A stretch of 64,000 nt of DNA from Streptomyces sp. NBC_00285 (GTDB lineage Bacteria; Actinomycetota; Actinomycetes; Streptomycetales; Streptomycetaceae): the NCBI RefSeq assembly GCF_036174265.1, contig NZ_CP108055.1:8928001-8992000 (forward strand), read 5' to 3'. The notes beneath the pieces were generated by a model, which was not told where the DNA came from, made no database searches, and saw only the letters and a program-made list of their open reading frames with translations. Below are positions 19,236 to 30,825 of the stretch, in pieces. The position numbers were made by a program, and so were the translations under genes. How positions within the stretch are numbered: position 1 is the stretch's first letter; each line of letters starts with the position of its first letter.

Positions 19236-20171
19236 TCAGTGGCACAGTCGCGCCTCGTGCTCCGCGTGCCCGACGGGCTCCAGCTGGAAGGTGCAGTGCT
19301 CCACGTCGAAGTGGTCGCCGAGGCAGCCCTGGAGCTCGTGCAGCATCTTCTCGTGACCGATCCCACTCAGGACGTCGGAGCGCACCACCACGTGCGCGGA
19401 CAGCACCGGCATGCCCGAGGTGATCGTCCAGGCGTGCAGGTCGTGGACGTCCTCCACGCCGTCCAGGGCGAGGATGTGGGTCCGTACCTCGGTCATGTCC
19501 ACGTCCCTGGGCGCCGCCTCCAGCAGGACGTCGAGGGTCTCGCGCAGCAGCTTGAAGGTGCGCGGCACGATCATCAGGCCGATCACCAGTGAGGCGATCG
19601 GGTCGGCGGCCTGCCAGCCCGTGGTCAGGATCACCGTCGCCGAGATCAGTACGGCGACCGAGCCCAGCGCGTCCGCCGCGACCTCCAGGAACGCCCCGCG
19701 CACGTTCAGGCTCTCCTTCTGGCCGCGCATCAGCAGGGTCAGGGAGATCATGTTCGCGACCAGGCCGATCGCGCCGAACACGATGGTCAGTCCGCCCTCG
19801 GTGGCGGTCGGCGTGATGAACCGCTGGATCGCCTCGTACAGGACGTAGCCGCCGACACCGAGCAGCAGCAGACAGTTCGCCAGGGCCGCCAGGATCTCGG
19901 CGCGGGCGAAACCGAAGGTGCGGTTGCCGGTCGCCGGGCGGTTCGCGAAGTGGATCGCCAGGAGTGCCATGCCGAGGCCCAGCGCGTCCGTCGCCATGTG
20001 CGCGGCGTCGGCGACCAGGGCGAGGGAGTCCGCGACGACCCCGCCGACGATCTCCACCACCATGACGGTGAGCGTGATCGACAGCGCCACCCGCAGCCTG
20101 CCGACGTACGCCGCGGTCGCCGTACCGCCGGCCGGGGCGTGTGAGTGCCCGTGATCGTGCCCTGCCCCCAT
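19236..20171 (-). CDS. Cation diffusion facilitator (CDF) metal exporter
   Basis: Inner-membrane divalent-cation/proton antiporter of 311 residues, expected to export Zn2+ or a similar ion. The N-terminus is His-rich (GAGHDHGHSH), six membrane helices span about 25-215, and the metal-site motifs are DAAHMATDA in helix 2 (about 54-62) and EVAADALGS in helix 5. The cytoplasmic C-terminal domain (about 220-311) has the usual VHDLHAWTI strand and His residues near the end. A strong AGGAGG box precedes ATG 20171. It is leftward like idi and galE, 187 nt upstream of idi. Metal specificity is not decided by sequence. Confidence 0.92.
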   Translation of the reverse strand: MGAGHDHGHSHAPAGGTATAAYVGRLRVALSITLTVMVVEIVGGVVADSLALVADAAHMATDALGLGMALLAIHFANRPATGNRTFGFARAEILAALANCLLLLGVGGYVLYEAIQRFITPTATEGGLTIVFGAIGLVANMISLTLLMRGQKESLNVRGAFLEVAADALGSVAVLISATVILTTGWQAADPIASLVIGLMIVPRTFKLLRETLDVLLEAAPRDVDMTEVRTHILALDGVEDVHDLHAWTITSGMPVLSAHVVVRSDVLSGIGHEKMLHELQGCLGDHFDVEHCTFQLEPVGHAEHEARLCH

Positions 20172-20314
20172 GGAAGCCGCCTCCTACGCGTCGACCCGGA
20201 ACGGCCCGCCCGGGATCACAGTGAACTACGGGCGGGGGGTACCGGGCAACGCGGCACTGAACACCGTTGTCATGTGCTCTGACCTGGGGAAACGAATCGC
20301 AGGTCAGGGGAGCC

Positions 20315-21283
20315 TCAGTTGTGGTGCAGCAGCCAGCCCCGCCAGGCGGAGTCGATCATCTCGCGCACCCCTCGCCGCGCGCTCCAGCCGAGCGCCTCGG
20401 CGGCCCGGACCGCCGAGGCCACCGACACGGGCGCGTCCCCGGGACGCCTCGGCTCGACGACGGGCGGGCGCCTGTCTCCGGTCACGTCCGCGATGACCGT
20501 GACCATCTCGCGCACGGAGACGCCCTCCCCTCGACCGATGTTGACCGTCAGGTCGCCGCTCAGGTCGCCTTCGGACAGCCGCCGGGCCGCCGCGAGGTGG
20601 GCCTCGGCCAGGTCGGACACATGGATGTAGTCACGGATGCAGGTGCCGTCCGGCGTCGGGTAGTCGTCGCCGAAGATCCGCGGGGCCTGGTCGCGGGTGA
20701 GCCGGTCGAAGACCATCGGGACGATGTTGAAGACCCCGGTGTCCGCGAGTTCCGGCGCGGCGGCCCCGGCGACGTTGAAATAGCGCAGGCAGACGGTGGA
20801 GATTCCGTGCGCCTGCCCGGCCGCCCGCACCAGCCACTCCCCGGCGAGCTTCGTCTCGCCGTAGGGGTTCACCGGCGCGCACGGCGTCTCCTCCGTGATC
20901 AGTTCCGCATCCGGGTTGCCGTAGACGGCCGCCGACGAGGAGAAGAGGAAGCGGGAGACGCCCGCCTCCGCGACGGCCTCCAGGAGGGTCGCGAGACCGC
21001 CGACGTTCTCCTGGTAGTAGCGGGCCGGCTGCGCCACCGACTCGGCTACCTGCTTGCGCGCCGCGAGATGCACCACACCCGTCACCGCGTGTTCGGCCAG
21101 CACCCGCTTCAGCAGGCCGCCGTCGAGCGAGGAGCCGCGGACCAGCGGCACGTCTGCGGGGAGCCGGGCGGGCACGCCCGCCGACAGGTCGTCCAGGACG
21201 AGCACTCGCTCCCCGGCCCCCGTCATGGCCCGCGCCACATGCGCCCCTATGTACCCGGCACCGCCGGTGATCAGCCACGTCAT
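20315..21283 (-). CDS. galE: UDP-glucose 4-epimerase
   Basis: NAD-dependent SDR-family epimerase that interconverts UDP-glucose and UDP-galactose (or their N-acetyl forms). The 322-residue protein has the Rossmann signature GGAGYIG (7-13), the Ser/Thr segment SSSAAVYGNP (about 115-124), the catalytic YGETK (Tyr about 140, Lys 144) and RYFNVAGA in the substrate region. It is divergent from the phosphotransferase-led cell-surface cluster beginning at 21562. UDP-galactose could feed the GT2 enzyme of that cluster, but this link rests on position only. Confidence 0.92.
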   Translation of the reverse strand: MTWLITGGAGYIGAHVARAMTGAGERVLVLDDLSAGVPARLPADVPLVRGSSLDGGLLKRVLAEHAVTGVVHLAARKQVAESVAQPARYYQENVGGLATLLEAVAEAGVSRFLFSSSAAVYGNPDAELITEETPCAPVNPYGETKLAGEWLVRAAGQAHGISTVCLRYFNVAGAAAPELADTGVFNIVPMVFDRLTRDQAPRIFGDDYPTPDGTCIRDYIHVSDLAEAHLAAARRLSEGDLSGDLTVNIGRGEGVSVREMVTVIADVTGDRRPPVVEPRRPGDAPVSVASAVRAAEALGWSARRGVREMIDSAWRGWLLHHN

Positions 21284-21561
21284 GGTCGCCCACCCTATGC
21301 CGACGCTCCGAGGCGCCTCACGGTGTCCCGGATGTCCGCTCTGCGGGGCACGGTTTGTGGGCGGGGGCCCGGATCACCGATGATGATCGCGGCAAAGGCC
21401 GGGGGAGACGGTGTTGATCGGCCCGTGAACGGGCGGTGAACGCAGCCTTCTTGGCATCCGATAGCCTCTGCCGACATGCCGCCCGCCTGGTGTTCCCAAG
21501 GGGCGCCCCCATCATGCACATGACCGGCGCCCGCGCGTCGGCACCCAGGGAGTGAGTTCGG

Positions 21562-23355
21562 TTGTCGACCGCCATCCTCACCGGTCAGCCGGTCCCCGGA
21601 TCGTCGATCGAGGGTGATCTGCGGTCCCTCGGCTTCGACGTGAAGGTCGCCGTGGACGCCGCCGACGCCGAGCGCATGGTCGCCGAGGCGCCCTGCGACC
21701 AGCGCGTCAGCCTCGTCGACGCCCGCTTCGTCGGCCACGTGCACTCCCTGCGCCTGGGCCTCACCGACCCCCGCTTCCCGCTCGCCGCACTGCCCGGCGC
21801 CGTCACCGCGCAGCCCGACGGCCGCGTGCCCCTCACCCGGGCGCTGGCCCGCGAGAACTCCGCGGGCGGCGGCACGGCGGTGGCCGTGAACAGCGTGCCC
21901 GACCGTGTCGTCACCGCGCTGGCCGACGACGGCGCCGACGTGTACCGCCCCGAACTCGGCAGCCTGGTCGCCGCCGTCCCCGCCGACCCGCAGGCCCGCA
22001 ACGAGGCACGGCAGGCCGTCGCGGACGTCGACGACGAGGCCGTACGCCTGAAGTCGGCCGTGAAGTCCCGTGACGGCTTCTTCACCACCCACTTCATCAG
22101 CCCGTACTCCCGCTACATCGCCCGCTGGTGCGCCCGCCGCGGTCTGACCCCGAACCAGGTCACCACCGCCTCCCTGATCACCGCGCTGGTCGCGGCGACC
22201 TGCGCCGCCACCGGCACCAGGCCCGGCTTCATCGCCGCCGGCCTCCTGCTCATCGCGTCCTTCGTGCTGGACTGCGTGGACGGCCAGATCGCCCGCTACG
22301 CCCTGCAGTACTCCACGCTCGGTGCCTGGCTCGACGCCACCTTCGACCGGGCCAAGGAGTACGCCTACTACGCGGGCCTCGCCCTCGGAGCGGCCCGCGG
22401 CGGCGATGACGTCTGGGCCCTCGCCCTCGGTGCGATGGTCCTCCAGACCTGCCGCCACGTCGTCGACTTCGCCTTCAACGAGGCCAACCACGACGCCACC
22501 GCCAACACCAGCCCCACGGCCGCCCTTTCGGGCAAGCTCGACAGCGTCGGCTGGACGGTGTGGGTCCGGCGGATGATCGTCCTGCCGATCGGAGAGCGCT
22601 GGGCGATGATCGCCGTGCTCACGGCGGTCACGACGCCCCGGATCACCTTCTACGCCCTTCTCGTCGGGTGCGCCTTCGCGGCGACGTACACCACGGCGGG
22701 CCGGGTGCTGCGGTCGCTGACCCGCAAGGCACAGCGCACGGACCGGGCGGCGCAGGCGCAGGCGCTGGCGGATCTGGCGGACAACGGACCGCTGGCCGGA
22801 CTGCTGGCACGTGTCTCGCGGGCCCCTCTCGGAGGCCCGCTCGTGGCGGCGCTGGGCGGCACGGTGATCCTGGCCGTCGCCCTCTTCTCCGGCGTCACCT
22901 GGGCGCCCGTCGCGGGTGCCGTCGTCTACGCGGACGCCGCCGGTCAGGCCCTGTACCGCCCCCTCAAGGGCGCCCTCGACTGGCTCGTCCCCCCGCTCTT
23001 CCGCGCCGCCGAATACGGCACCGTGCTGATCCTCGCGGCCCGAGCGGACGTGAACGGAGCCCTTCCTGCGGCTTTCGGGCTGGTGGCCGCGGTCGCCTAC
23101 CATCACTACGACACGGTGTACCGCATCCGCGGCAACGCCGGAGCGCCCCCGGCCTGGCTGGTGCGCGCCATCGGAGGGCACGAAGGACGGACGCTGCTCG
23201 TCACCGTCCTGGCCGTCCTCCTCACCGCTTCGCAGTTCACGGTCGCGCTCACGGTCCTCGCCGTGGCCGTCGCCCTGCTGGTGCTCGTCGAGAGCATCCG
23301 CTTCTGGGTGTCCTCCGGGGCGCCCGCCGTACACGATGAAGGAGAACCCGCATGA
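21562..23355 (+). CDS. CDP-alcohol phosphatidyltransferase-family membrane protein with DUF5941
   Basis: A 597-residue membrane enzyme that should transfer an alcohol phosphate from a CDP-activated donor. Residues 1-170 form a soluble domain of unknown role. The CDP-alcohol phosphotransferase core (about 185-380) has the full signature: DCVDGQIAR, eight residues, then GAWLDATFD, so all four metal/catalytic Asp are present. The C-terminal part (about 390-597) has several more helices and corresponds, from memory, to DUF5941. Start is TTG 21562, with AGGGAG 9 nt upstream. The last 4 nt overlap the start of the nucleotidyltransferase gene (ATGA), indicating coupled translation. Donor and acceptor are unknown; see the cluster finding. 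Confidence 0.85.
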   Translation: MSTAILTGQPVPGSSIEGDLRSLGFDVKVAVDAADAERMVAEAPCDQRVSLVDARFVGHVHSLRLGLTDPRFPLAALPGAVTAQPDGRVPLTRALARENSAGGGTAVAVNSVPDRVVTALADDGADVYRPELGSLVAAVPADPQARNEARQAVADVDDEAVRLKSAVKSRDGFFTTHFISPYSRYIARWCARRGLTPNQVTTASLITALVAATCAATGTRPGFIAAGLLLIASFVLDCVDGQIARYALQYSTLGAWLDATFDRAKEYAYYAGLALGAARGGDDVWALALGAMVLQTCRHVVDFAFNEANHDATANTSPTAALSGKLDSVGWTVWVRRMIVLPIGERWAMIAVLTAVTTPRITFYALLVGCAFAATYTTAGRVLRSLTRKAQRTDRAAQAQALADLADNGPLAGLLARVSRAPLGGPLVAALGGTVILAVALFSGVTWAPVAGAVVYADAAGQALYRPLKGALDWLVPPLFRAAEYGTVLILAARADVNGALPAAFGLVAAVAYHHYDTVYRIRGNAGAPPAWLVRAIGGHEGRTLLVTVLAVLLTASQFTVALTVLAVAVALLVLVESIRFWVSSGAPAVHDEGEPA

Positions 23356-24104
23356 TCGGCCTTGTGCTGGCGGCCGGCGCCGGACGCCGTCTGCGCCCCT
23401 ACACCGACAGCCTGCCCAAGGCTCTGGTGCCGGTGGGCCCCGCGGGCATAGAGGGCGAACCGACGGTTCTCGACCTCACCCTCGCCAACTTCGCGGAGAT
23501 CGGGCTGACCGAGGTCGCGATCATCGTCGGCTACCGCAAGGAGGCCGTGTACGACCGCAAGGCGGCCCTCGAGGAGAAGTACGGCCTCAAGCTCACCCTC
23601 ATCGACAACGACAAGGCCGAGGAGTGGAACAACGCCTACTCCCTGTGGTGCGGCCGTGACGCCCTCAAGGACGGCGTGATCCTCGCCAACGGCGACACCG
23701 TGCACCCGGTCTCCGTCGAGCGGACGCTGCTCGCCGCGCGCGGTGAGGGCAGGCGGATCATCCTCGCCCTGGACACCGTGAAGTCGCTGGCCGACGAGGA
23801 GATGAAGGTCGTCGTCGACGCCGAGAAGGGCATGACGAAGATCACCAAGCTGATGGACCCGGCCGAGGCGACCGGTGAGTACATCGGGGTCACCCTCATC
23901 GAGGGCGACGCCACCGCCGAGCTGGCCGACGCGCTCAAGACGGTGTGGGAGACCGACCCGCAGCAGTTCTACGAGCACGGCTACCAGGAGCTCGTGAACC
24001 GCGGCTTCCGGATCGACGTGGCCCCGATCGGCGACGTCAAGTGGGTCGAGATCGACAACCACGAGGATCTGGCCAAGGGGCGGGAGATCGCATGCCTGTA
24101 CTGA
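23352..24104 (+). CDS. Sugar-/alcohol-phosphate nucleotidyltransferase
   Basis: NTP-transferase fold enzyme of 250 residues, probably activating a phosphorylated alcohol or sugar as a CDP (or other NDP) derivative. The nucleotide loop is LVLAAGAGRRLRP and the following Lys in SLPKAL (about 20-25). The metal-binding Asp is in LANGDTVHP (about 113-121), and EIDNHEDLAKG closes the fold near the C-terminus. The general look is that of phosphocholine or inositol-phosphate cytidylyltransferases rather than glucose-1-phosphate enzymes. It overlaps the upstream phosphotransferase gene by 4 nt and the downstream dehydrogenase gene by 13 nt. Together with both CDP-alcohol phosphotransferases, a CTP-using role is the best guess. 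Confidence 0.83.
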   Translation: MIGLVLAAGAGRRLRPYTDSLPKALVPVGPAGIEGEPTVLDLTLANFAEIGLTEVAIIVGYRKEAVYDRKAALEEKYGLKLTLIDNDKAEEWNNAYSLWCGRDALKDGVILANGDTVHPVSVERTLLAARGEGRRIILALDTVKSLADEEMKVVVDAEKGMTKITKLMDPAEATGEYIGVTLIEGDATAELADALKTVWETDPQQFYEHGYQELVNRGFRIDVAPIGDVKWVEIDNHEDLAKGREIACLY

Positions 24105-25153
24105 CCCGGCTGATTCCCTCGCCGGTCGTCGTGGACATCCGCCCGGGTGCCCTCGACGACCTGGCCGGTGTGCTCGCCGACCAGCGCATCTCGCACTCCG
24201 GCCGGCTCGCGGTCGCCGTCAGCGGCGGCTCCGGCGCCCGGCTGCGCGCGCGCCTCGAACCGAGCCTGCCCGGCGCCACCTGGTACGAGGTCGGCGGCGG
24301 CACACTCGACGACGCGATCCAACTGGCGGGTGACATGAAGGCCGGTCACTACGACGCGGTCGTGGGTCTCGGCGGCGGCAAGATCATCGACTGTGCCAAG
24401 TTCGCCGCTGCGCGCATCGGCCTGCCGCTGGTCGCCGTACCGACGAACCTCGCGCACGACGGCCTGTGTTCGCCGGTCGCCACCCTCGACAACGACGCGG
24501 GGCGCGGCTCCTACGGCGTGCCGAACCCGATCGCGGTCGTCATCGACCTCGACGTGATCCGCGAGGCACCGGTCCGCTTCGTGCGGGCGGGCATCGGGGA
24601 CGCGATCTCCAACATCTCCGCGATCGCGGACTGGGAGCTCGCGAACCGCGTCAAGGGCGAGAAGATCGACGGTCTGGCCGCGGCCATGGCCCGACAGGCG
24701 GGCGAGGCCGTCCTACGGCATCCCGGCGGGGTCGGCGACAACGCCTTCCTCCAGGTGCTCGCAGAGGCGCTCGTGCTCAGCGGGATCGCCATGTCGGTGT
24801 CGGGCGACTCACGCCCGTCCTCCGGCGCCTGCCACGAGATCAACCACGCCTTCGACGTGCTCTATCCCAAGCGCGCTGCCGCCCACGGCGAACAGTGCGG
24901 GCTGGGCGCGGCCTTCGCGATGTACCTGCGCGGAGCCCACGAGGAGTCGGCCTACATGGCCGAGGTGCTGCGCCGGCACGGACTGCCGGTGCTGCCGGAG
25001 GAGATCGGCTTCACGCCCGCGGAGTTCGTCCGTGTCGTGGAGTTCGCTCCGGAGACCCGCCCCGGCCGCTACACCATCCTCGAACACCTCGACCTCACGA
25101 CCGACCAGATCAAGGACATCTACACCGACTATGTCAAGGCCATCGGTAGCTGA
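24092..25153 (+). CDS. sn-Glycerol-1-phosphate dehydrogenase-like enzyme
   Basis: Iron-containing alcohol-dehydrogenase-fold protein of 353 residues most like G1P dehydrogenases (EgsA/AraM), which reduce dihydroxyacetone phosphate to sn-glycerol-1-phosphate. The NAD(P) loop is VGLGGGKIIDCAK (about 91-103). All three metal ligands of the G1PDH type are visible: Asp in PTNLAHDGLCS (about 114-124), His in GACHEINHAFD (about 245-255) and His in AAAHGEQCG (about 262-270). Start is ATG 24092, overlapping the nucleotidyltransferase gene by 13 nt; the next gene begins 23 nt before its stop. In context it could supply G1P for cytidylylation by its neighbour. That chain is inference. Confidence 0.83.
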   Translation: MPVLTRLIPSPVVVDIRPGALDDLAGVLADQRISHSGRLAVAVSGGSGARLRARLEPSLPGATWYEVGGGTLDDAIQLAGDMKAGHYDAVVGLGGGKIIDCAKFAAARIGLPLVAVPTNLAHDGLCSPVATLDNDAGRGSYGVPNPIAVVIDLDVIREAPVRFVRAGIGDAISNISAIADWELANRVKGEKIDGLAAAMARQAGEAVLRHPGGVGDNAFLQVLAEALVLSGIAMSVSGDSRPSSGACHEINHAFDVLYPKRAAAHGEQCGLGAAFAMYLRGAHEESAYMAEVLRRHGLPVLPEEIGFTPAEFVRVVEFAPETRPGRYTILEHLDLTTDQIKDIYTDYVKAIGS

Positions 25154-25910
25154 ACTCCGTCCGGTCGTCCACCCCGCAGGGGTCAAGGACCGGCGCAGCG
25201 GTGAGCACTGGATGGGACGCCTCTACATGCGTGAGGTGTCCCTGCGGGTGGACCGCTACCTGGTGAACACCAGGGTCACGCCCAACCAGCTCACGTACCT
25301 GATGACCGTCTTCGGCGTCCTCGCGGCCCCGGCGCTCCTGGTACCGGGGATCCCGGGCGCCGTGCTCGGCGTGGTGTGCGTCCAGATGTACCTGCTGCTG
25401 GACTGCGTCGACGGCGAGATCGCGCGCTGGAAGAAGCAGTACTCGCTGAACGGCATCTACCTCGACCGGGTCGGCGCCTACCTGACCGACGCGGCCGTGC
25501 TCGTCGGCTTCGGACTGCGCGCCGCCGACCTGTTCGGCAGCGGCCGTATCGACTGGCTGTGGGCCTTCCTCGGCACCCTGGCCGCCCTCGGCGCGATCCT
25601 CATCAAGGCCGAGACCGACCTCGTCGGCGTCGCCCGCCACCAGACCGGCAAGCCCCCCGTGCAGGAGGCCGCCGCCGAGATGCGCTCCTCCGGCATGGCT
25701 CTGGCCCGCAAGGCCGCCGCCATGCTGAAGTTCCACCGGCTGATCCTCGGCATCGAGGCGTCCCTGGTGATCCTGGTGCTGGCGATCGTGGACAACGTTC
25801 GCGACGACCTCTTCTTCTCCCGGCTCGGCGTCGCCGTGATGGCCGGCATCGCGCTCCTGCAGACCCTTCTGCACCTCGTCTCCATCCTCGCCTCCAGCAG
25901 GCTGAAGTGA
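25131..25910 (+). CDS. CDP-alcohol phosphotransferase-family membrane protein with altered active-site motif
   Basis: A 259-residue membrane protein of the CDP-alcohol phosphatidyltransferase family with about six helices. The signature starts well, DCVDGEIAR plus eight residues and GIYLD, but the fourth Asp expected three residues later is Ala (RVGAY); the next Asp is four residues further on. In this family the fourth Asp is the proposed catalytic base, so the protein may have changed chemistry or be inactive. The start is ATG 25131 (MSRPSVAELRP), overlapping the dehydrogenase gene by 23 nt. The region around 170-200 contains a hydrophilic cytoplasmic loop. It is followed by the GT2 gene with a 4-nt GTGA overlap. 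Confidence 0.83.
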   Translation: MSRPSVAELRPVVHPAGVKDRRSGEHWMGRLYMREVSLRVDRYLVNTRVTPNQLTYLMTVFGVLAAPALLVPGIPGAVLGVVCVQMYLLLDCVDGEIARWKKQYSLNGIYLDRVGAYLTDAAVLVGFGLRAADLFGSGRIDWLWAFLGTLAALGAILIKAETDLVGVARHQTGKPPVQEAAAEMRSSGMALARKAAAMLKFHRLILGIEASLVILVLAIVDNVRDDLFFSRLGVAVMAGIALLQTLLHLVSILASSRLK

Positions 25911-26791
25911 GCACCGGCATGAAGGTCGGCGCGGTGATCATCACCATGGGCAACCGCCCCGAGGAACTGCGCGCCCTGATCGACTCGGTCGCCAAGCAGG
26001 ACGGCGACCCGGTCGAGGTGGTCGTCGTCGGCAACGGCTCGCCCGTCCCGGACGTCCCCGACGGTGTCCGGACGATCGAGCTGCCCGAGAACCTCGGCAT
26101 CCCCGGCGGCCGCAACGTCGGCATCGAGGCCTTCGGTCCCAGCGGCCGTGACGTCGACATACTGCTCTTCCTCGACGACGACGGCCTCCTGGCCACCCAC
26201 GACACCGCCGAGCTGTGCCGCCGGACGTTCACCGAGGACCCGAAGCTCGGCATCGTCAGCTTCCGCATCGCGGACCCGGAGACCGGCATCACTCAGCGTC
26301 GGCACGTCCCGAGGCTGCGTGCCGCCGACCCGATGCGCTCCTCCCGGGTCACCACCTTCCTCGGCGGCGCCAACGCCGTACGCACGCAGGTCTTCGCCGA
26401 AGTGGGCGGCCTCCCGGACGAGTTCTTCTACGCCCACGAGGAAACCGACCTGGCATGGCGGGCTCTCGACGCGGGCTGGATGATCGACTACCGGTCCGAC
26501 ATGGTGCTGTACCACCCCACGACCGCGCCCTCGCGGCACGCGGTCTATCACCGCATGGTCGCCCGCAACCGCGTCTGGCTCGCCCGCCGCAACCTCCCCG
26601 CGCCGCTCGTCCCGGTCTACCTCGGCGTCTGGCTGCTGCTCACGCTTGTGCGCCGCCCCTCCCGGCCGGCCCTCAAGGCCTGGTTCGGAGGGTTCCGGGA
26701 AGGCTGGAGCACACCGTGCGGCCCGCGCCGGCCCATGAAGTGGCGTACGGTGTGGCGGCTCACCCGACTGGGCCGGCCTCCTGTGATCTGA
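25907..26791 (+). CDS. Family 2 glycosyltransferase
   Basis: GT-A fold sugar transferase of 294 residues, cytoplasmic or membrane-associated. Residues 5-15 form the first nucleotide-binding strand (VGAVIITMGNR). GIPGGRNVGIEAFG (about 63-76) is the conserved loop before the metal motif, and LLFLDDDGLL (about 86-95) carries the DxD. EVGGLPDEFFYAHEETDLAWR (about 165-185) contains the ED motif of the catalytic base. A hydrophobic segment near 235-255 (VPVYLGVWLLLTLV) may anchor it to the membrane. It is translationally coupled to the upstream phosphotransferase and precedes the ABC exporter, so it probably decorates or extends the exported polymer. Confidence 0.9.
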   Translation: MSTGMKVGAVIITMGNRPEELRALIDSVAKQDGDPVEVVVVGNGSPVPDVPDGVRTIELPENLGIPGGRNVGIEAFGPSGRDVDILLFLDDDGLLATHDTAELCRRTFTEDPKLGIVSFRIADPETGITQRRHVPRLRAADPMRSSRVTTFLGGANAVRTQVFAEVGGLPDEFFYAHEETDLAWRALDAGWMIDYRSDMVLYHPTTAPSRHAVYHRMVARNRVWLARRNLPAPLVPVYLGVWLLLTLVRRPSRPALKAWFGGFREGWSTPCGPRRPMKWRTVWRLTRLGRPPVI

Positions 26792-26888
26792 CAAGCTCGT
26801 CCCTGAGAGCACCCGGGCCGCACCGCGGCCCCACACCCGTGCCCTGCCTGCACAGGCCGCGCATCTCGAAGACGAAAGACACCCACCA

Positions 26889-27818
26889 TTGAGTGAGACA
26901 ACGCACGACGGCAAGGTCGCGACCAGCGTGTCCGCGTCGCCCGCCCAGGGCCCGACGGCCGCGCAGCTCGCCGAGCGGCACGGACTGTCCGTGAGCGGCG
27001 CCCGGCCCTCGCTCGTCGCATACGTACGCCAGCTCTGGGCCCGGCGTCACTTCATCCTCGCGTTCTCGCGGGCGAAGCTGACCGCCCAGTACAGCCAGGC
27101 CAAGCTCGGCCAGCTGTGGCAGGTGGCGACCCCGCTGCTGAACGCCGCCGTGTACTTCTTCATCTTCGGCGTCATCCTGAACGCCAGCCGGGGCATGTCG
27201 AAGGACGTGTACATCCCGTTCCTCGTGACGGGTGTCTTCGTGTTCACCTTCACGCAGAGCTCGGTCATGGCGGGCGTGCGCGCCATCTCCGGCAACCTCG
27301 GCCTCGTCCGCGCGCTGCACTTCCCGCGCGCCTCGCTGCCGATCTCCTTCGCGCTCCAGCAGCTCCAGCAGCTGCTGTTCTCGATGGTCGTGCTGTTCGC
27401 CGTGGCCATCGGCTTCGGCCACTACCCCGACCTGTCCTGGGCGCTCATCGTCCCGGTGCTGGCCCTGCAGTTCCTCTTCAACACCGGCCTGGCGCTGATC
27501 ATGGCCCGCGCGGGTGCCAAGACGCCCGACCTGGCACAGCTCATGCCGTTCGTGATGCGTACCTGGATGTACGCCTCCGGCGTGATGTTCTCGATCCCGA
27601 TCATGCTGGCCGACAAGCCGCAGTGGGTCGCCACGGTTCTCCAGTGGAACCCGGCGGCCCTCTACATGGACCTGATGCGCTTCGCGCTCATCGACGAGTA
27701 CGGCGCCGAGAACCTGCCCGACCACGTCTGGGCGGCCGCGGTCGGCTGGGCGGCGCTCTTCGCGCTCGGTGGCTTCGTGTACTTCTGGAAGGCTGAGGAG
27801 AGGTACGGCCGTGGCTGA
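26889..27818 (+). CDS. ABC-2 type polysaccharide/teichoic acid export permease
   Basis: Membrane component of a two-gene exporter of the TagG/Wzm type. The 309-residue protein has a hydrophilic N-terminus (about 1-45), then an amphipathic region and six helices, with LTAQYSQAKLGQLWQVATPLL just before the first membrane span, a hallmark of this family. The start appears to be TTG 26889 (MSETTHDG-). About 97 nt separate it from the GT2 gene, so a secondary promoter is possible. The next gene, the ATPase subunit, starts inside its last codons. Substrate is probably the glycopolymer made by the preceding five genes. Confidence 0.9.
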   Translation: MSETTHDGKVATSVSASPAQGPTAAQLAERHGLSVSGARPSLVAYVRQLWARRHFILAFSRAKLTAQYSQAKLGQLWQVATPLLNAAVYFFIFGVILNASRGMSKDVYIPFLVTGVFVFTFTQSSVMAGVRAISGNLGLVRALHFPRASLPISFALQQLQQLLFSMVVLFAVAIGFGHYPDLSWALIVPVLALQFLFNTGLALIMARAGAKTPDLAQLMPFVMRTWMYASGVMFSIPIMLADKPQWVATVLQWNPAALYMDLMRFALIDEYGAENLPDHVWAAAVGWAALFALGGFVYFWKAEERYGRG

Positions 27819-28590
27819 GCAGATCACCGACGAGCAGGTCCCCACGGTCATCGCGGACGAACTGCACATCGTCTACCGCGTCAACGGCGCCAAGACCGGC
27901 AAGGGCAGTGCCACCTCCGCCCTGAGCCGCATCCTCAAGCGCGGCGAGGAGCGCGGTGTGCGCAAGGTGCACGCCGTCCGGGGTGTCTCCTTCGTCGCCT
28001 ACAAGGGCGAGGCGATCGGCCTGATCGGTTCCAACGGTTCCGGCAAGTCGACGCTGCTGCGCGCGATCGCGGGCCTTCTGCCCGCCGAGAGCGGCTGTGT
28101 CTACACCCACGGTCAGCCTTCCCTCCTCGGCGTGAACGCGGCGCTGATGAACGACCTCACCGGCGAGCGGAACGTCATCCTGGGCGGCCTCGCCATGGGC
28201 ATGTCCCGGGAGCAGGTCAAGGAGCGCTACCAGGAGATCGTCGACTTCTCCGGGATCAACGAGAAGGGCGACTTCATCACCCTTCCGATGCGGACGTACT
28301 CCTCCGGCATGGCGGCCCGGCTGCGCTTCTCCATCGCCGCCGCCAAGGACCACGACGTCCTCATGATCGACGAGGCCCTGGCCACCGGCGACCGCTCCTT
28401 CCAGAGGCGTTCGGAGGAGCGCATCCGCGAACTGCGCAAGCACGCGGGCACGGTGTTTCTCGTCAGTCACAACAACAAGTCGATCCGTGACACCTGCGAC
28501 CGGGTGCTGTGGCTGGAGCGCGGCGAACTGCGCATGGACGGCCCGACCGACGAGGTCATCCAGGAGTACGAGAAGTTCACGGGCAAGTAG
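27811..28590 (+). CDS. ABC exporter ATPase subunit (TagH/Wzt type)
   Basis: ATPase partner of the preceding permease, 259 residues. Walker A is IGSNGSGKSTLLRAIAG (about 71-87); the signature is the YSSGMAARLRFSIA form typical of TagH/Wzt rather than LSGGQ; Walker B is DVLMIDEALATGD (about 187-199). The N-terminal 60 residues include the long loop before Walker A (RILKRGEERGVRKVHAV) found in polysaccharide exporters. It lacks the C-terminal carbohydrate-recognition domain of some Wzt proteins. The GTG start at 27811 overlaps the permease gene by 8 nt. A strong hairpin terminator follows 37 nt after the stop and ends the cluster. Confidence 0.92.
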   Translation: MAEQITDEQVPTVIADELHIVYRVNGAKTGKGSATSALSRILKRGEERGVRKVHAVRGVSFVAYKGEAIGLIGSNGSGKSTLLRAIAGLLPAESGCVYTHGQPSLLGVNAALMNDLTGERNVILGGLAMGMSREQVKERYQEIVDFSGINEKGDFITLPMRTYSSGMAARLRFSIAAAKDHDVLMIDEALATGDRSFQRRSEERIRELRKHAGTVFLVSHNNKSIRDTCDRVLWLERGELRMDGPTDEVIQEYEKFTGK

Positions 28591-28627
28591 TCCACCCCGC
28601 CCGGACGAAAGAGACCGCTCCGCTTCC

Positions 28628-28662
28628 CAGGGCCTCGCCGGAACTGCTCCGGCGGGGCCCTG
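28628..28662 (+). terminator. Strong hairpin terminator ending the exporter cluster
   Basis: CAGGGCCTCGCCGGA (28628-28642) pairs over 15 positions, including one G-T wobble, with TCCGGCGGGGCCCTG (28648-28662), leaving a 5-nt loop. It lies 38 nt after the ABC ATPase stop and separates that unit from the hopanoid operon. Confidence 0.8.
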
Positions 28663-28975
28663 CGTCTGCAAAGGAAACGTCAACTTCGGCCCCCCTTAGG
28701 AATCTTGGGGCCAATCGGTGTGTTGTTGTGATGTGCAGGACACCCCGACGATCCTTAACGCGTTGTACAACGTAAGCTGTACCGGTGCTCAATCGCGTCA
28801 AGTGGGGCGATAACGCGCGACACCCGCTACCCTGACGCCGCACGGACGGCCGGGCGGCGTGTCCGAAATAGTGCGTCTTGGGTCGGCGGTGTAGAACGGG
28901 AGATGTGACGGCAATGGCGACCGAAGATCCCCAGCTCCACCCGGCTCATGCCGTCCCCATCCCGGGAAGTGAGCG
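28663..28975 (+). promoter_or_regulatory. Hopanoid operon upstream region with a perfect 12-bp palindrome
   Basis: About 310 nt between the terminator and hpnC. It is less GC-rich than its surroundings near 28690-28800, as expected for a promoter region. It contains CGTTGTACAACG (28761-28772), a perfect palindrome and a good operator candidate. A second loose inverted repeat, GTAC...GTAC, overlaps it at 28765-28782. A short leader ORF occupies the last 66 nt. I could not assign -35/-10 boxes with confidence. Confidence 0.5.
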
Positions 28976-28979
28976 GTGA
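28914..28979 (+). CDS. Possible 21-residue leader ORF coupled to hpnC
   Basis: ATG 28914 opens a 21-codon frame (MATEDPQLHPAH-) whose TGA stop at 28977-28979 overlaps the hpnC GTG start in a GTGA junction, the same arrangement used between genes inside the operon. An in-frame GTG at 28905 is an alternative start. The GGGAG box upstream is at an awkward distance from either start (11 or 2 nt). Coding potential is too short to judge; the exact overlap is the only support. Confidence 0.3.
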   Translation: MATEDPQLHPAHAVPIPGSER

Positions 28980-29878
28980 CGGAAACTGGTACGGCCCGCG
29001 CCGGTGATCCGGAGCGTGGCACGCTCGACAAGGCCGCGGGGGAGAACTTCCCCGTGGCTCCGTTCTTCCTGCCCAAGGACTGGCGCACCGACCTCATGGC
29101 CGTCTACGGGTTCGCCCGCCTTGTCGACGACATCGGCGACGGCGACCTGGCCCCCGGCGGTGCCGACGCGGAGCTGCTCGGCGTGTCGCCCGAGGAGGCC
29201 GAGGACCGGCTGATCCTCCTCGACGCCTTCGAGGCCGACCTGAACCGGGTCTTCTCCGGAGAGCCCCGCCACCCCCTGCTGCGCCGCCTCCGGCCGACCG
29301 TCCGCCGTCGCGCCCTCACTCCTGAGCCTTTCCTCGGCCTGATCGCCGCCAACCGTCAGGACCAGTTGGTCACGCGCTACGAGACCTACGACGACCTGCT
29401 CGCCTACTGCGAGCTGTCCGCCAATCCCGTCGGCCGTCTCGTGCTCGCCGTCACCGGCACCTCGACCCCCGAGCGGATCCGGCTCTCCGACGCGATCTGC
29501 ACCGCCCTCCAGATCGTCGAACACCTCCAGGACGTCGCCGAGGACCTCGGCCGCGACCGGATCTATCTGCCCGCCGAGGACATGAAACGCTTTCACGTCC
29601 AGGAGGCGGATCTCGCCACGAAAACCGCGGGCGCATCGGTGCGCGCACTGGTTGCATACGAAGCACAACGCGCTCGCGAACTCCTGAATGAAGGCGCCCC
29701 TCTGGTGGGTAGCGTCCACGGCAGGTTGAAGCTGCTGCTCGCAGGGTTCGTGGCGGGGGGAAGGGCGGCGATCCGCGCGATCGCCGCCGCCGAATACGAC
29801 GTACTTCCCGGCCCGCCCAAGCCCGGCAGGATCCAGCTGCTGCGCGAAGTGGGCGTCACTCTGCGAGGAAAGGGGTGA
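28976..29878 (+). CDS. hpnC: Hydroxysqualene synthase HpnC
   Basis: Trans-isoprenyl-diphosphate synthase-fold enzyme of 300 residues. In the HpnCDE route HpnC converts presqualene diphosphate to hydroxysqualene. Two Asp-rich metal sites are visible: LVDDIGDGD (about 43-51) and EHLQDVAEDLGRDRIYLPAED (about 182-202). FFLPKDWRTDLMAVYGFARL (about 25-44) is typical of the HpnC branch. Start is GTG 28976. The next gene, hpnD, begins within the last 4 nt (GTGA). First enzyme gene of the hopanoid operon. Confidence 0.93.
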   Translation: MTETGTARAGDPERGTLDKAAGENFPVAPFFLPKDWRTDLMAVYGFARLVDDIGDGDLAPGGADAELLGVSPEEAEDRLILLDAFEADLNRVFSGEPRHPLLRRLRPTVRRRALTPEPFLGLIAANRQDQLVTRYETYDDLLAYCELSANPVGRLVLAVTGTSTPERIRLSDAICTALQIVEHLQDVAEDLGRDRIYLPAEDMKRFHVQEADLATKTAGASVRALVAYEAQRARELLNEGAPLVGSVHGRLKLLLAGFVAGGRAAIRAIAAAEYDVLPGPPKPGRIQLLREVGVTLRGKG

Positions 29879-30825
29879 TCCGGACCGTGGAGTCATCACC
29901 ACCCGCGTCCGCACCGGTACTCGCCGCCTACAGCTACTGCGAGGCAGTCACCGGGCAGCAGGCCCGGAACTTCGCGTACGGCATCAGGCTGCTGCCGACA
30001 TCCAAGCGGCGCGCGATGTCCGCGCTCTACGCGTTCTCACGGCGCGTCGACGACATCGGCGACGGTGCGCTGGCGGACGAGGTCAAGACCGCGAGACTCG
30101 AGGACACCCGGGCGATGCTGGCCCGGGTGCGCGACGGCTCGGTCGACGAGGACGACACCGATCCGGTGGCCGTCGCCCTCGCCCACGCCGCCGAGACCTT
30201 CCCGATCCCGCTCGGCGGCCTGGACGAACTGATCGACGGCGTCCTCATGGACGTACGCGGCGAGACCTACGAGACCTGGGACGACCTGAAGGTGTACTGC
30301 CGCTGTGTGGCGGGCGCCATCGGGCGGCTCTCGCTCGGCGTGTTCGGCCCGGAACCCGGGGCGCGCGCTGCCGAACGCGCGCCGGAGTACGCCGACACGC
30401 TCGGGCTCGCGCTCCAGTTGACCAACATCCTCCGGGACGTCCGTGAGGACGCCGAGGGCGGGCGCATCTACCTGCCCGCCGACGACCTCGCGAAGTTCGG
30501 CTGCTCGGCCGGCTTCAAGGGGTCACAACCACCCGAGGGCGCCGACTTCGCGGGCCTCGTGCACTTCGAAGTGCGACGGGCCCGCGCTCTTTTCGCCGAG
30601 GGCTACCGGCTGCTCCCCATGCTCGACCGGCGCAGCGGTGCCTGTGTCGCCGCCATGGCCGGCATCTACCGCCGGCTGCTCGACCGCATCGAGCGCGACC
30701 CCGAGGCGGTGCTGCGCGGCCGCGTCGCGCTGCCCGGGCGTGAGAAGGCGTATGTCGCCGTCCGCGGCCTGTCCGGGCTGGACGCACGGCATGTGACCCG
30801 GCGGACCGTCAGGAGGCGTGCCTGA
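29875..30825 (+). CDS. hpnD: Presqualene diphosphate synthase HpnD
   Basis: Condenses two farnesyl diphosphates to presqualene diphosphate, the step before HpnC. The 316-residue protein has NFAYGIRLLPTSKRRAM (about 32-48), first Asp-rich site SRRVDDIGDG (about 55-64), and second site LTNILRDVREDAEGGRIYLP (about 182-201), matching the squalene/phytoene synthase signature. It overlaps hpnC by 4 nt at a GTGA junction and abuts the DUF6380 gene at a TGATG junction. An AGGAGG box at its 3' end serves that next gene. Confidence 0.94.
   Translation: MIRTVESSPPASAPVLAAYSYCEAVTGQQARNFAYGIRLLPTSKRRAMSALYAFSRRVDDIGDGALADEVKTARLEDTRAMLARVRDGSVDEDDTDPVAVALAHAAETFPIPLGGLDELIDGVLMDVRGETYETWDDLKVYCRCVAGAIGRLSLGVFGPEPGARAAERAPEYADTLGLALQLTNILRDVREDAEGGRIYLPADDLAKFGCSAGFKGSQPPEGADFAGLVHFEVRRARALFAEGYRLLPMLDRRSGACVAAMAGIYRRLLDRIERDPEAVLRGRVALPGREKAYVAVRGLSGLDARHVTRRTVRRRA

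Follow-up and report, generated by a model that had tools for sequence, protein, structure and literature searches.

In the textbook view, bacteria make sn-glycerol-3-phosphate and archaea sn-glycerol-1-phosphate. What, then, would a Streptomyces make with a gene cluster that combines a dehydrogenase resembling sn-glycerol-1-phosphate dehydrogenase (G1PDH) with a nucleotidyltransferase (NTase), two CDP-alcohol phosphotransferases (CAP1 and CAP2, in gene order), a GT2 glycosyltransferase and an ABC exporter? Such a cluster of seven + strand genes lies at 21562-28590 of the window, the 64,000-nucleotide stretch of contig NZ_CP108055.1 (positions 8,928,001 to 8,992,000) that was analysed from the 10.3-Mb genome of Streptomyces sp. 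NBC_00285. Throughout the sampled Streptomyces genomes, this cluster, judged by its genes, appears to serve the synthesis and export of a sugar polymer of the cell surface that contains phosphate. Its most probable role is the CDP-1-glycerol-dependent glycerophosphorylation of an ABC-exported glycan, either a teichoic-acid-like polymer or a lipoglycan; we infer the substrates, their stereochemistry and the product from sequence. More tentatively, Streptomyces and many other actinobacteria may quite possibly have swapped the TagD branch for a complete CDP-1-glycerol pathway, in which CDP-alcohol phosphotransferases, often with a dead DUF5941 partner, load sn-glycerol-1-phosphate on a cytoplasmic glycan.

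21562-23355, + strand: CAP1 (Pfam CDP-OH_P_transf and DUF5941), with a cytidylyltransferase-like domain (1-156), an intact CDP-alcohol phosphotransferase domain (~170-390) and DUF5941 (~392-597)
23352-24104, + strand: LicC-like NTase (Pfam NTP_transferase; PDB match LicC 1jyk), proposed CTP:sn-glycerol-1-phosphate cytidylyltransferase
24092-25153, + strand: G1PDH-like dehydrogenase (Pfam Fe-ADH_2; NF002022; PDB 3ce9, 4rgq, 5fb3), proposed to convert dihydroxyacetone phosphate to sn-glycerol-1-phosphate
25131-25910, + strand: CAP2 (Pfam CDP-OH_P_transf; best PDB match AF2299)
25907-26791, + strand: GT2 glycosyltransferase (Pfam Glycos_transf_2)
26889-27818, + strand: ABC exporter permease, TagG/Wzm type (Pfam ABC2_membrane)
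27811-28590, + strand: ABC exporter ATPase, TagH/Wzt type (Pfam ABC_tran; PDB TagH 7dd0)

A first-pass annotation had described seven same-strand genes here, the first five overlapping by 4-23 nt, and both the coordinates and its domain calls agree with ours. On recomputation the overlaps are 4 nt (CAP1/NTase), 13 nt (NTase/dehydrogenase), 23 nt (dehydrogenase/CAP2) and 4 nt (CAP2/GT2), followed by a gap of 97 nt between GT2 and the permease and an overlap of 8 nt between permease and ATPase.

In the proposed pathway, the dehydrogenase would convert dihydroxyacetone phosphate to sn-glycerol-1-phosphate, from which the NTase would make CDP-1-glycerol, these two steps standing in for the TagD route of other actinobacteria. 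CAP2, in Streptomyces together with CAP1, would then pass glycerophosphate to an acceptor held in the membrane, either a lipid or a sugar linked to one. DUF5941 would be a dead phosphotransferase half, probably the dimer partner of CAP1 within the fusion and perhaps that of CAP2 where CAP1 is not found. GT2 would add a sugar, perhaps from UDP-galactose via the neighbouring GalE, and the TagGH/Wzm-Wzt-type pair would export the product.

The NTase-dehydrogenase module and its TagD counterpart

A search for co-occurrence in actinobacterial genomes, which the first-pass annotation had suggested, was run on a class sample of 394 genomes; a phylum sample of 296 served for DUF5941 and a genus sample of 101 for GGGPS. 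At thresholds of E <= 1e-50 for the dehydrogenase and E <= 1e-40 for the NTase, each was found in 100 of the 394 class genomes and both in 99, leaving one genome with the dehydrogenase alone, one with the NTase alone and 293 with neither. Because both occur in 99 genomes and one alone in only two, the two genes are read as acting as a single module (hereafter, the module). DUF5941 was present in 109/394 class genomes and 13/296 phylum genomes, and accompanied the module in 87 of the 99. Among the matches listed, all 40 genomes of the same genus (our own included) carried dehydrogenase, NTase and DUF5941, and none of the 20 misses listed per search was a same-genus genome. At the level of individual loci (L-numbers), we studied 100, of which 20 were chosen from DUF5941 matches and the others were the best 80 of 588 from a CAP2 profile scan. 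The module was present in 51 of these, the NTase alone in one (L046) and neither gene in 48. In all 51 module loci both genes lie on the same strand with matched stretches at most 188 nt apart, and in 42 of them these stretches share 10 nt. The layout of the cluster is not a matter of chance, since the same genes recur across Actinomycetota.

The dehydrogenase scored 244.4 bits against the G1PDH model NF002022, compared with 93.3 bits for the glycerol dehydrogenase model and 66.4 for the glycolaldehyde reductase model. Its nearest PDB chains are solved G1PDHs and 3ce9, with matches that include 4rgq, 5fb3 and AraM 9h4x, and in the alignment it has the shared G1PDH motifs GGG, [NH]DG, SRPxSG and HG. 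The Asp-His-His metal ligands previously noted correspond to D170, H248 and H265, residues that we presume to be ligands and that align with stretches of 4rgq, 5fb3 and 3ce9. In a conservation test, 64 columns were invariant in the 51 dehydrogenase sequences of the clade; of the columns compared, a Methanocaldococcus (M.) jannaschii stretch shares 41/56, 5fb3 39/57 and 3ce9 42/58, and two proteins labelled sn-glycerol-1-phosphate dehydrogenase (label only) share 35/63 and 31/63.

Evidence on the activated alcohol came from loci in which the module is absent. In six Intrasporangiaceae loci, namely L065, L066, L068, L072, L073 and L075, CAP1, CAP2 and the ABC pair are present without the module, and CAP2 is followed at a distance of ~1 kb by a TagD-like gene of the same orientation. 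The L065 protein scored 123.6 bits against TIGR01518 and 72.6 against the next family, and the other five are 79-92% identical to it. In the class sample, TagD-type genes counted at E <= 1e-20 (four genomes over the cut-off, two only at 81-84 bits) occur in 32/394 genomes, none of them in our genus. They share 0 genomes with the module against 8.0 expected, and outside the genus 0 against 5.3, both expectations being uncorrected for kinship. Our genome gave no TagD match at E <= 1e-3; it encodes one TagF-like protein (404.4 bits, G000:C1:4430081) outside the cluster, and PF04464 (TagB/TagF) is absent among the seven cluster genes. The TagD-like replacement, the mutual exclusion of module and TagD, and the presence of TagF without TagD point to CDP-glycerol as the activated alcohol.

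Second copies of the module were also seen in Streptomyces, at L150 8802-10603 and L151 8753-10569 (genomes G433 and G539), together with a second dehydrogenase alone at L152 9379-10506 (G403). These are flanked on one side by a large gene, which Pfam identifies as RNase E/G in G433, and on the other by genes that are presumably rplU or obg, judging by their first residues. GalU is over its cut-off in L151, and L152 has a GalU-like start. TagF-like matches (48-56% to those of L043) lie 6-10 kb from the second dehydrogenase copy in G403, and weaker ones (32-52%, some short) lie 3-8 kb from the second module copy in G539. A different NTP_transf_3 enzyme, NTase-B, is encoded in 14/100 loci, all without the module and often divergent from the operon (for example L056 15347-16051 and L058 12722-13528). 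Three loci carry the titles of a Bifidobacterium breve and a Rubrivirga metagenome-assembled genome (L069, L080, L089); their arrangements resemble those of other actinobacterial metagenome-assembled genomes, and the titles may be wrong.

The phosphotransferases and DUF5941

CAP1 has the CDP-alcohol phosphotransferase fold and a complete DxxDGxxARx8GxxxDxxxD motif, as the first-pass annotation had read it, and the last Asp is kept in 48 of the 49 CAP1 segments scored. In CAP2 the position of the fourth Asp is occupied by His in 79 and Ala in 17 of 96 segments; among loci not picked via CAP2, 14 of 16 segments have His and the other two Ala. Both enzymes are nearest to AF2299, a relative of the CDP-inositol enzyme IPCT-DIPPS. 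Transfer had been ascribed to one or both of these proteins, and here the two differ: CAP2 is the transferase present in 51/51 module loci, whereas the catalytic part of CAP1 was detected in 25/51. CAP1 was therefore dropped as a general transferase, its catalytic part being missing in many module loci.

The DUF5941 half of CAP1 folds as a CDP-alcohol phosphotransferase that lacks the motif, by a fold comparison of DUF5941 alone: the D..DG motif was found in 0/18 rows, and a motif of its own, H.YD..YR, in 18/18. Support for this relationship comes from the fold comparison, a profile comparison between DUF5941 and the CAP domain having given none (hhalign probability 0.3%). No paper naming DUF5941 was found in the open-licence PMC literature. 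In Nocardiopsis and Streptomonospora loci (L101 7484-8062, L104, L110, L112, L116, L117 and L137), DUF5941 was matched and the CAP1 catalytic part was undetectable; in these, CAP2 may be the partner of DUF5941. In Kitasatospora L092 the NTase is preceded, upstream of 8150, by a decayed DUF5941-like remnant (FGLVATVAYHH...), as if CAP1 had been lost.

A solitary second CAP2 paralogue (48-51% identical, with Ala at the fourth Asp in 14/14) was found with the other cluster genes absent in L079 (10001-10774), L081, L091, L097, L105, L115, L121, L122, L124, L126, L127, L132, L134 and L139. In L079 a gene for a menaquinone biosynthesis decarboxylase (TIGR03701) is ~1.5 kb away, and no hint of a pathway emerged from these 14 CAP2-only loci.

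Export, sugar supply and surroundings

The TagG/TagH-type ABC pair of the earlier description is supported as part of the unit by comparison. The ATPase finds its closest PDB sequence in TagH 7dd0 (E 3e-54) and scored 180.8 bits against NF010066 (TagH), below the cut-off of 320; the permease scored 48.6 bits against NF050109 (galactan export Wzm), below the cut-off of 380. An ATPase match was present in 41/51 module loci and GT2 in 49/51. Stealth-like neighbours adjoin the module in L069 and L083, and weak TagF-like matches (29-41%), part of which may be to the GT2 or linker of the query, occur in L055, L061, L067, L111, L120 and L131. In two loci of family f7 (L154 and L155) the module lies near GlfT2 and a TagGH-like exporter, in L154 with a UDP-galactopyranose mutase. 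Genes with sulfotransferase-like starts are also present in these two loci; Pfam gave no match for the one examined (L154 11206-12396). Galactofuranose was rejected as a sugar for our strain, whose genome has no UDP-galactopyranose mutase.

Two further features flank the operon:

20315-21283, - strand: galE-like UDP-glucose 4-epimerase gene (TIGR01179), divergent from the operon
28630-28660, + strand: strong hairpin with 13-nt arms and no U-tract, possible terminator

GalE lies 278 nt from the operon and scored 318.9 bits against TIGR01179, over the cut-off of 262.3. A homologue with at least 50% identity lies near the module in 11/51 loci, 10 of which also have HpnC, so that location by itself gives GalE no advantage over the hopanoid genes. 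GalE, which may supply the sugar as UDP-galactose, is retained as a candidate because of its function and of its placement in Actinospica L120, where a galE homologue sits between CAP1 and the NTase in the orientation of the operon. The gene is named galE in Streptomyces fungicidicus, a record of which shares the gene order of our cluster (dehydrogenase 89% and CAP2 90% identical).

Downstream lie two genes of the squalene/phytoene-synthase family, HpnC and HpnD in S. fungicidicus, and the cluster does stand next to the hopanoid operon as first described. HpnC neighbours, however, were found in 20/51 module loci, all Streptomycetaceae by title or kinship (17 titled Streptomyces, Kitasatospora or Wenjunlia, and three same-genus genomes). 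A functional link to hopanoid synthesis was rejected on these grounds, and the association looks positional. The hairpin, previously called a 15-bp terminator, is real (arms 28630-28642 and 28648-28660; minimum free energy -37.6 kcal/mol, z -3.91, 1/200 shuffles equally good), but it has no T-run and was unreported by a terminator scan. No Rfam match reached the gathering threshold in 20000-30000, and no sigma-70-type promoter was found in 21000-29100. Two of the database records with chromosome-like content are labelled plasmid: a 927-kb S. fungicidicus record (L147, NZ_CP023408.1) with the cluster and hopanoid genes, and an 11.85-Mb Nonomuraea record (L148, NZ_LT559118.1).

Competing readings and related pathways

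Several observations weigh against a CDP-1-glycerol pathway that ends in an exported glycan. The L065 TagD-like protein is below the TIGR01518 cut-off of 165.4 bits; all six TagD loci also have a TagF-like match, which could use CDP-glycerol instead of the CAPs, and DUF5941 was not detected in them. The exclusion of TagD and module is partly phylogenetic, and family f7 has 23 genomes with TagD and three with the module. The CAP2 motif is non-canonical, with Ala in place of the fourth Asp in the window protein, and the CAP1 catalytic part went undetected in 26/51 module loci, three of these cut by a contig end. There is no polymerase in the cluster, and clear PF04464, Stealth and PF02397 genes occur in L043, L058 and L046, all without the full module, L046 having an NTase without a dehydrogenase. 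The dehydrogenase itself falls short of the NF002022 equivalog cut-off of 413 bits; at one presumed metal ligand the solved chains read His-Leu-Phe/Ile and the proteins of its clade His-Glu-Ile, and in L120 the presumed ligand Asp is replaced by Glu. Because of these last two replacements another keto-phosphate substrate is possible: the same logic would then apply to a different ketose or keto-polyol phosphate, and the NTase would make CDP-2-glycerol, CDP-arabinitol, CDP-ribitol or similar for the exported glycan. The family holds further activities, including that of the glycolaldehyde reductase model, and an unlabelled homologue (L144) shares 45/63 of the clade-invariant columns, which is no fewer than the solved chains share. 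We nonetheless think this unlikely, since the TagD-like replacement and exclusion favour glycerol and G1PDH is by far the best model. The L144 gene (8983-10032), which is G1PDH-like and 34% identical, is carried by a Nitratidesulfovibrio plasmid; type III secretion genes are a few kb away, and no cytidylyltransferase is annotated in the 19 kb shown. In the plasmid search for G1PDH relatives, the 60 matches listed out of 196 were mostly labelled glycerol dehydrogenase.

A point of another kind against CDP-1-glycerol is that the NTase has its best PDB sequence match in LicC, which acts on phosphocholine (1jyk, E 6e-13, residues 3-111 only), followed by 4jd0, which we take to be an inositol-phosphate enzyme, and 6pd1; the S. 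fungicidicus protein is labelled 'phosphocholine cytidylyltransferase family protein'. An NTase of LicC, PntC or IPCT type could thus decorate a surface molecule with phosphocholine, phosphonate or inositol phosphate, the dehydrogenase having a side role. This is improbable given that the dehydrogenase nearly always accompanies the NTase, that the label is a family name only, and that the best genome match to PEP mutase (TIGR02320), as regards phosphonate, reached 52.2 bits against a cut-off of 319.55. It is very improbable that the cluster serves a Kennedy-type lipid synthesis, with CAP1 moving phosphoglycerol from CDP-1-glycerol to a diacylglycerol-like lipid to give phosphatidylglycerol or a related head group that the ABC pair flips. 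The least credible alternative, to be entertained only barely, is an archaeal-type ether lipid made from glycerol-1-phosphate by GGGPS and DGGGPS. Streptomyces has been said to include species with G1PDH, GGGPS and DGGGPS, taken in 2019 as a hint of archaeal-like lipids (PMC6431249, in excerpt). Against this, no PF01884 (GGGPS) was found in our genome or in 101/101 genus genomes, a survey that does not exclude single species, and the dehydrogenase is tied to the NTase.

The preferred reading, a CDP-1-glycerol route, resembles the Tag pathway of Bacillus and Staphylococcus in its predicted CDP-glycerol donor, TagGH-like exporter, glycosyltransferase and envelope product. It differs in having an NTase of another family and its own G1PDH-like enzyme instead of TagD, CDP-alcohol phosphotransferases in place of TagB/TagF, and a predicted opposite glycerol enantiomer. 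Since neither TagD nor a TagF within the cluster was found, we do not assign the cluster to the Tag systems; in view of the Stealth-/TagF-like or GlfT2 neighbours of module loci elsewhere and the TagH-like ATPase, the unit would operate in the manner of a teichoic-acid pathway whose activation module and transferases are different. Archaeoglobus fulgidus AF2299 and IPCT-DIPPS likewise combine a cytidylyltransferase-fold domain with a CDP-alcohol phosphotransferase that is similar in sequence and fold, whereas in our cluster the NTase that is probably catalytic has a gene of its own, and a motif-less second half and an exporter are added. The AraM-PcrB pair of Bacillus subtilis, which yields G1P-based heptaprenylglyceryl phosphate, also uses a bacterial G1PDH-family enzyme; our cluster lacks PcrB/GGGPS and couples its dehydrogenase to an NTase. 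Galactan export by Wzm-Wzt with GlfT1/GlfT2 in mycobacteria and corynebacteria employs a similar ABC pair, and the f7 module lies beside GlfT2 and an exporter, whereas our genome is without the mutase and the cluster adds phosphotransferases.

The synteny is already in print: a block of araM, tagG, tagH, a CDP-alcohol transferase and GT2, conserved in Streptomyces according to a study of 929 genomes, has been linked to teichoic acid biosynthesis (PMC13118837). It holds the same genes as ours, and the excerpted text of that paper discusses no pathway, CDP-1-glycerol, DUF5941 or non-Streptomyces relatives. No description of a bacterial CDP-1-glycerol pathway was found in the open-licence PMC literature. 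According to the excerpted text of a 2021 study, the vast majority of bacteria have no free glycerol-1-phosphate, and CDP-1-glycerol is probably lacking in them; the study refers to an activity from A. fulgidus with a preference for glycerol-1-phosphate, and records sn-glycerol-1-phosphate in lipoteichoic acid and phosphatidylglycerol as well as in other surface structures (PMC8262930). The 'mirror-image' phosphoglycerol of the first-pass annotation is thus a mirror image relative to wall teichoic acid only, and the novelty would be the CDP-1-glycerol route, glycerol-1-phosphate units being already known in lipoteichoic acid and phosphatidylglycerol.

DUF5941 gains a fold class from this work. 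If the proposed pathway is correct, a large genus would make CDP-1-glycerol, and the missing TagD of Streptomyces would be explained. Wall glycerol phosphate would then have the stereochemistry of lipoteichoic acid, reached by a route of the wall-teichoic-acid type. The G1PDH genes of actinobacteria would have a role outside lipid backbones, and such use would be a main role of this 'archaeal' enzyme in the group.

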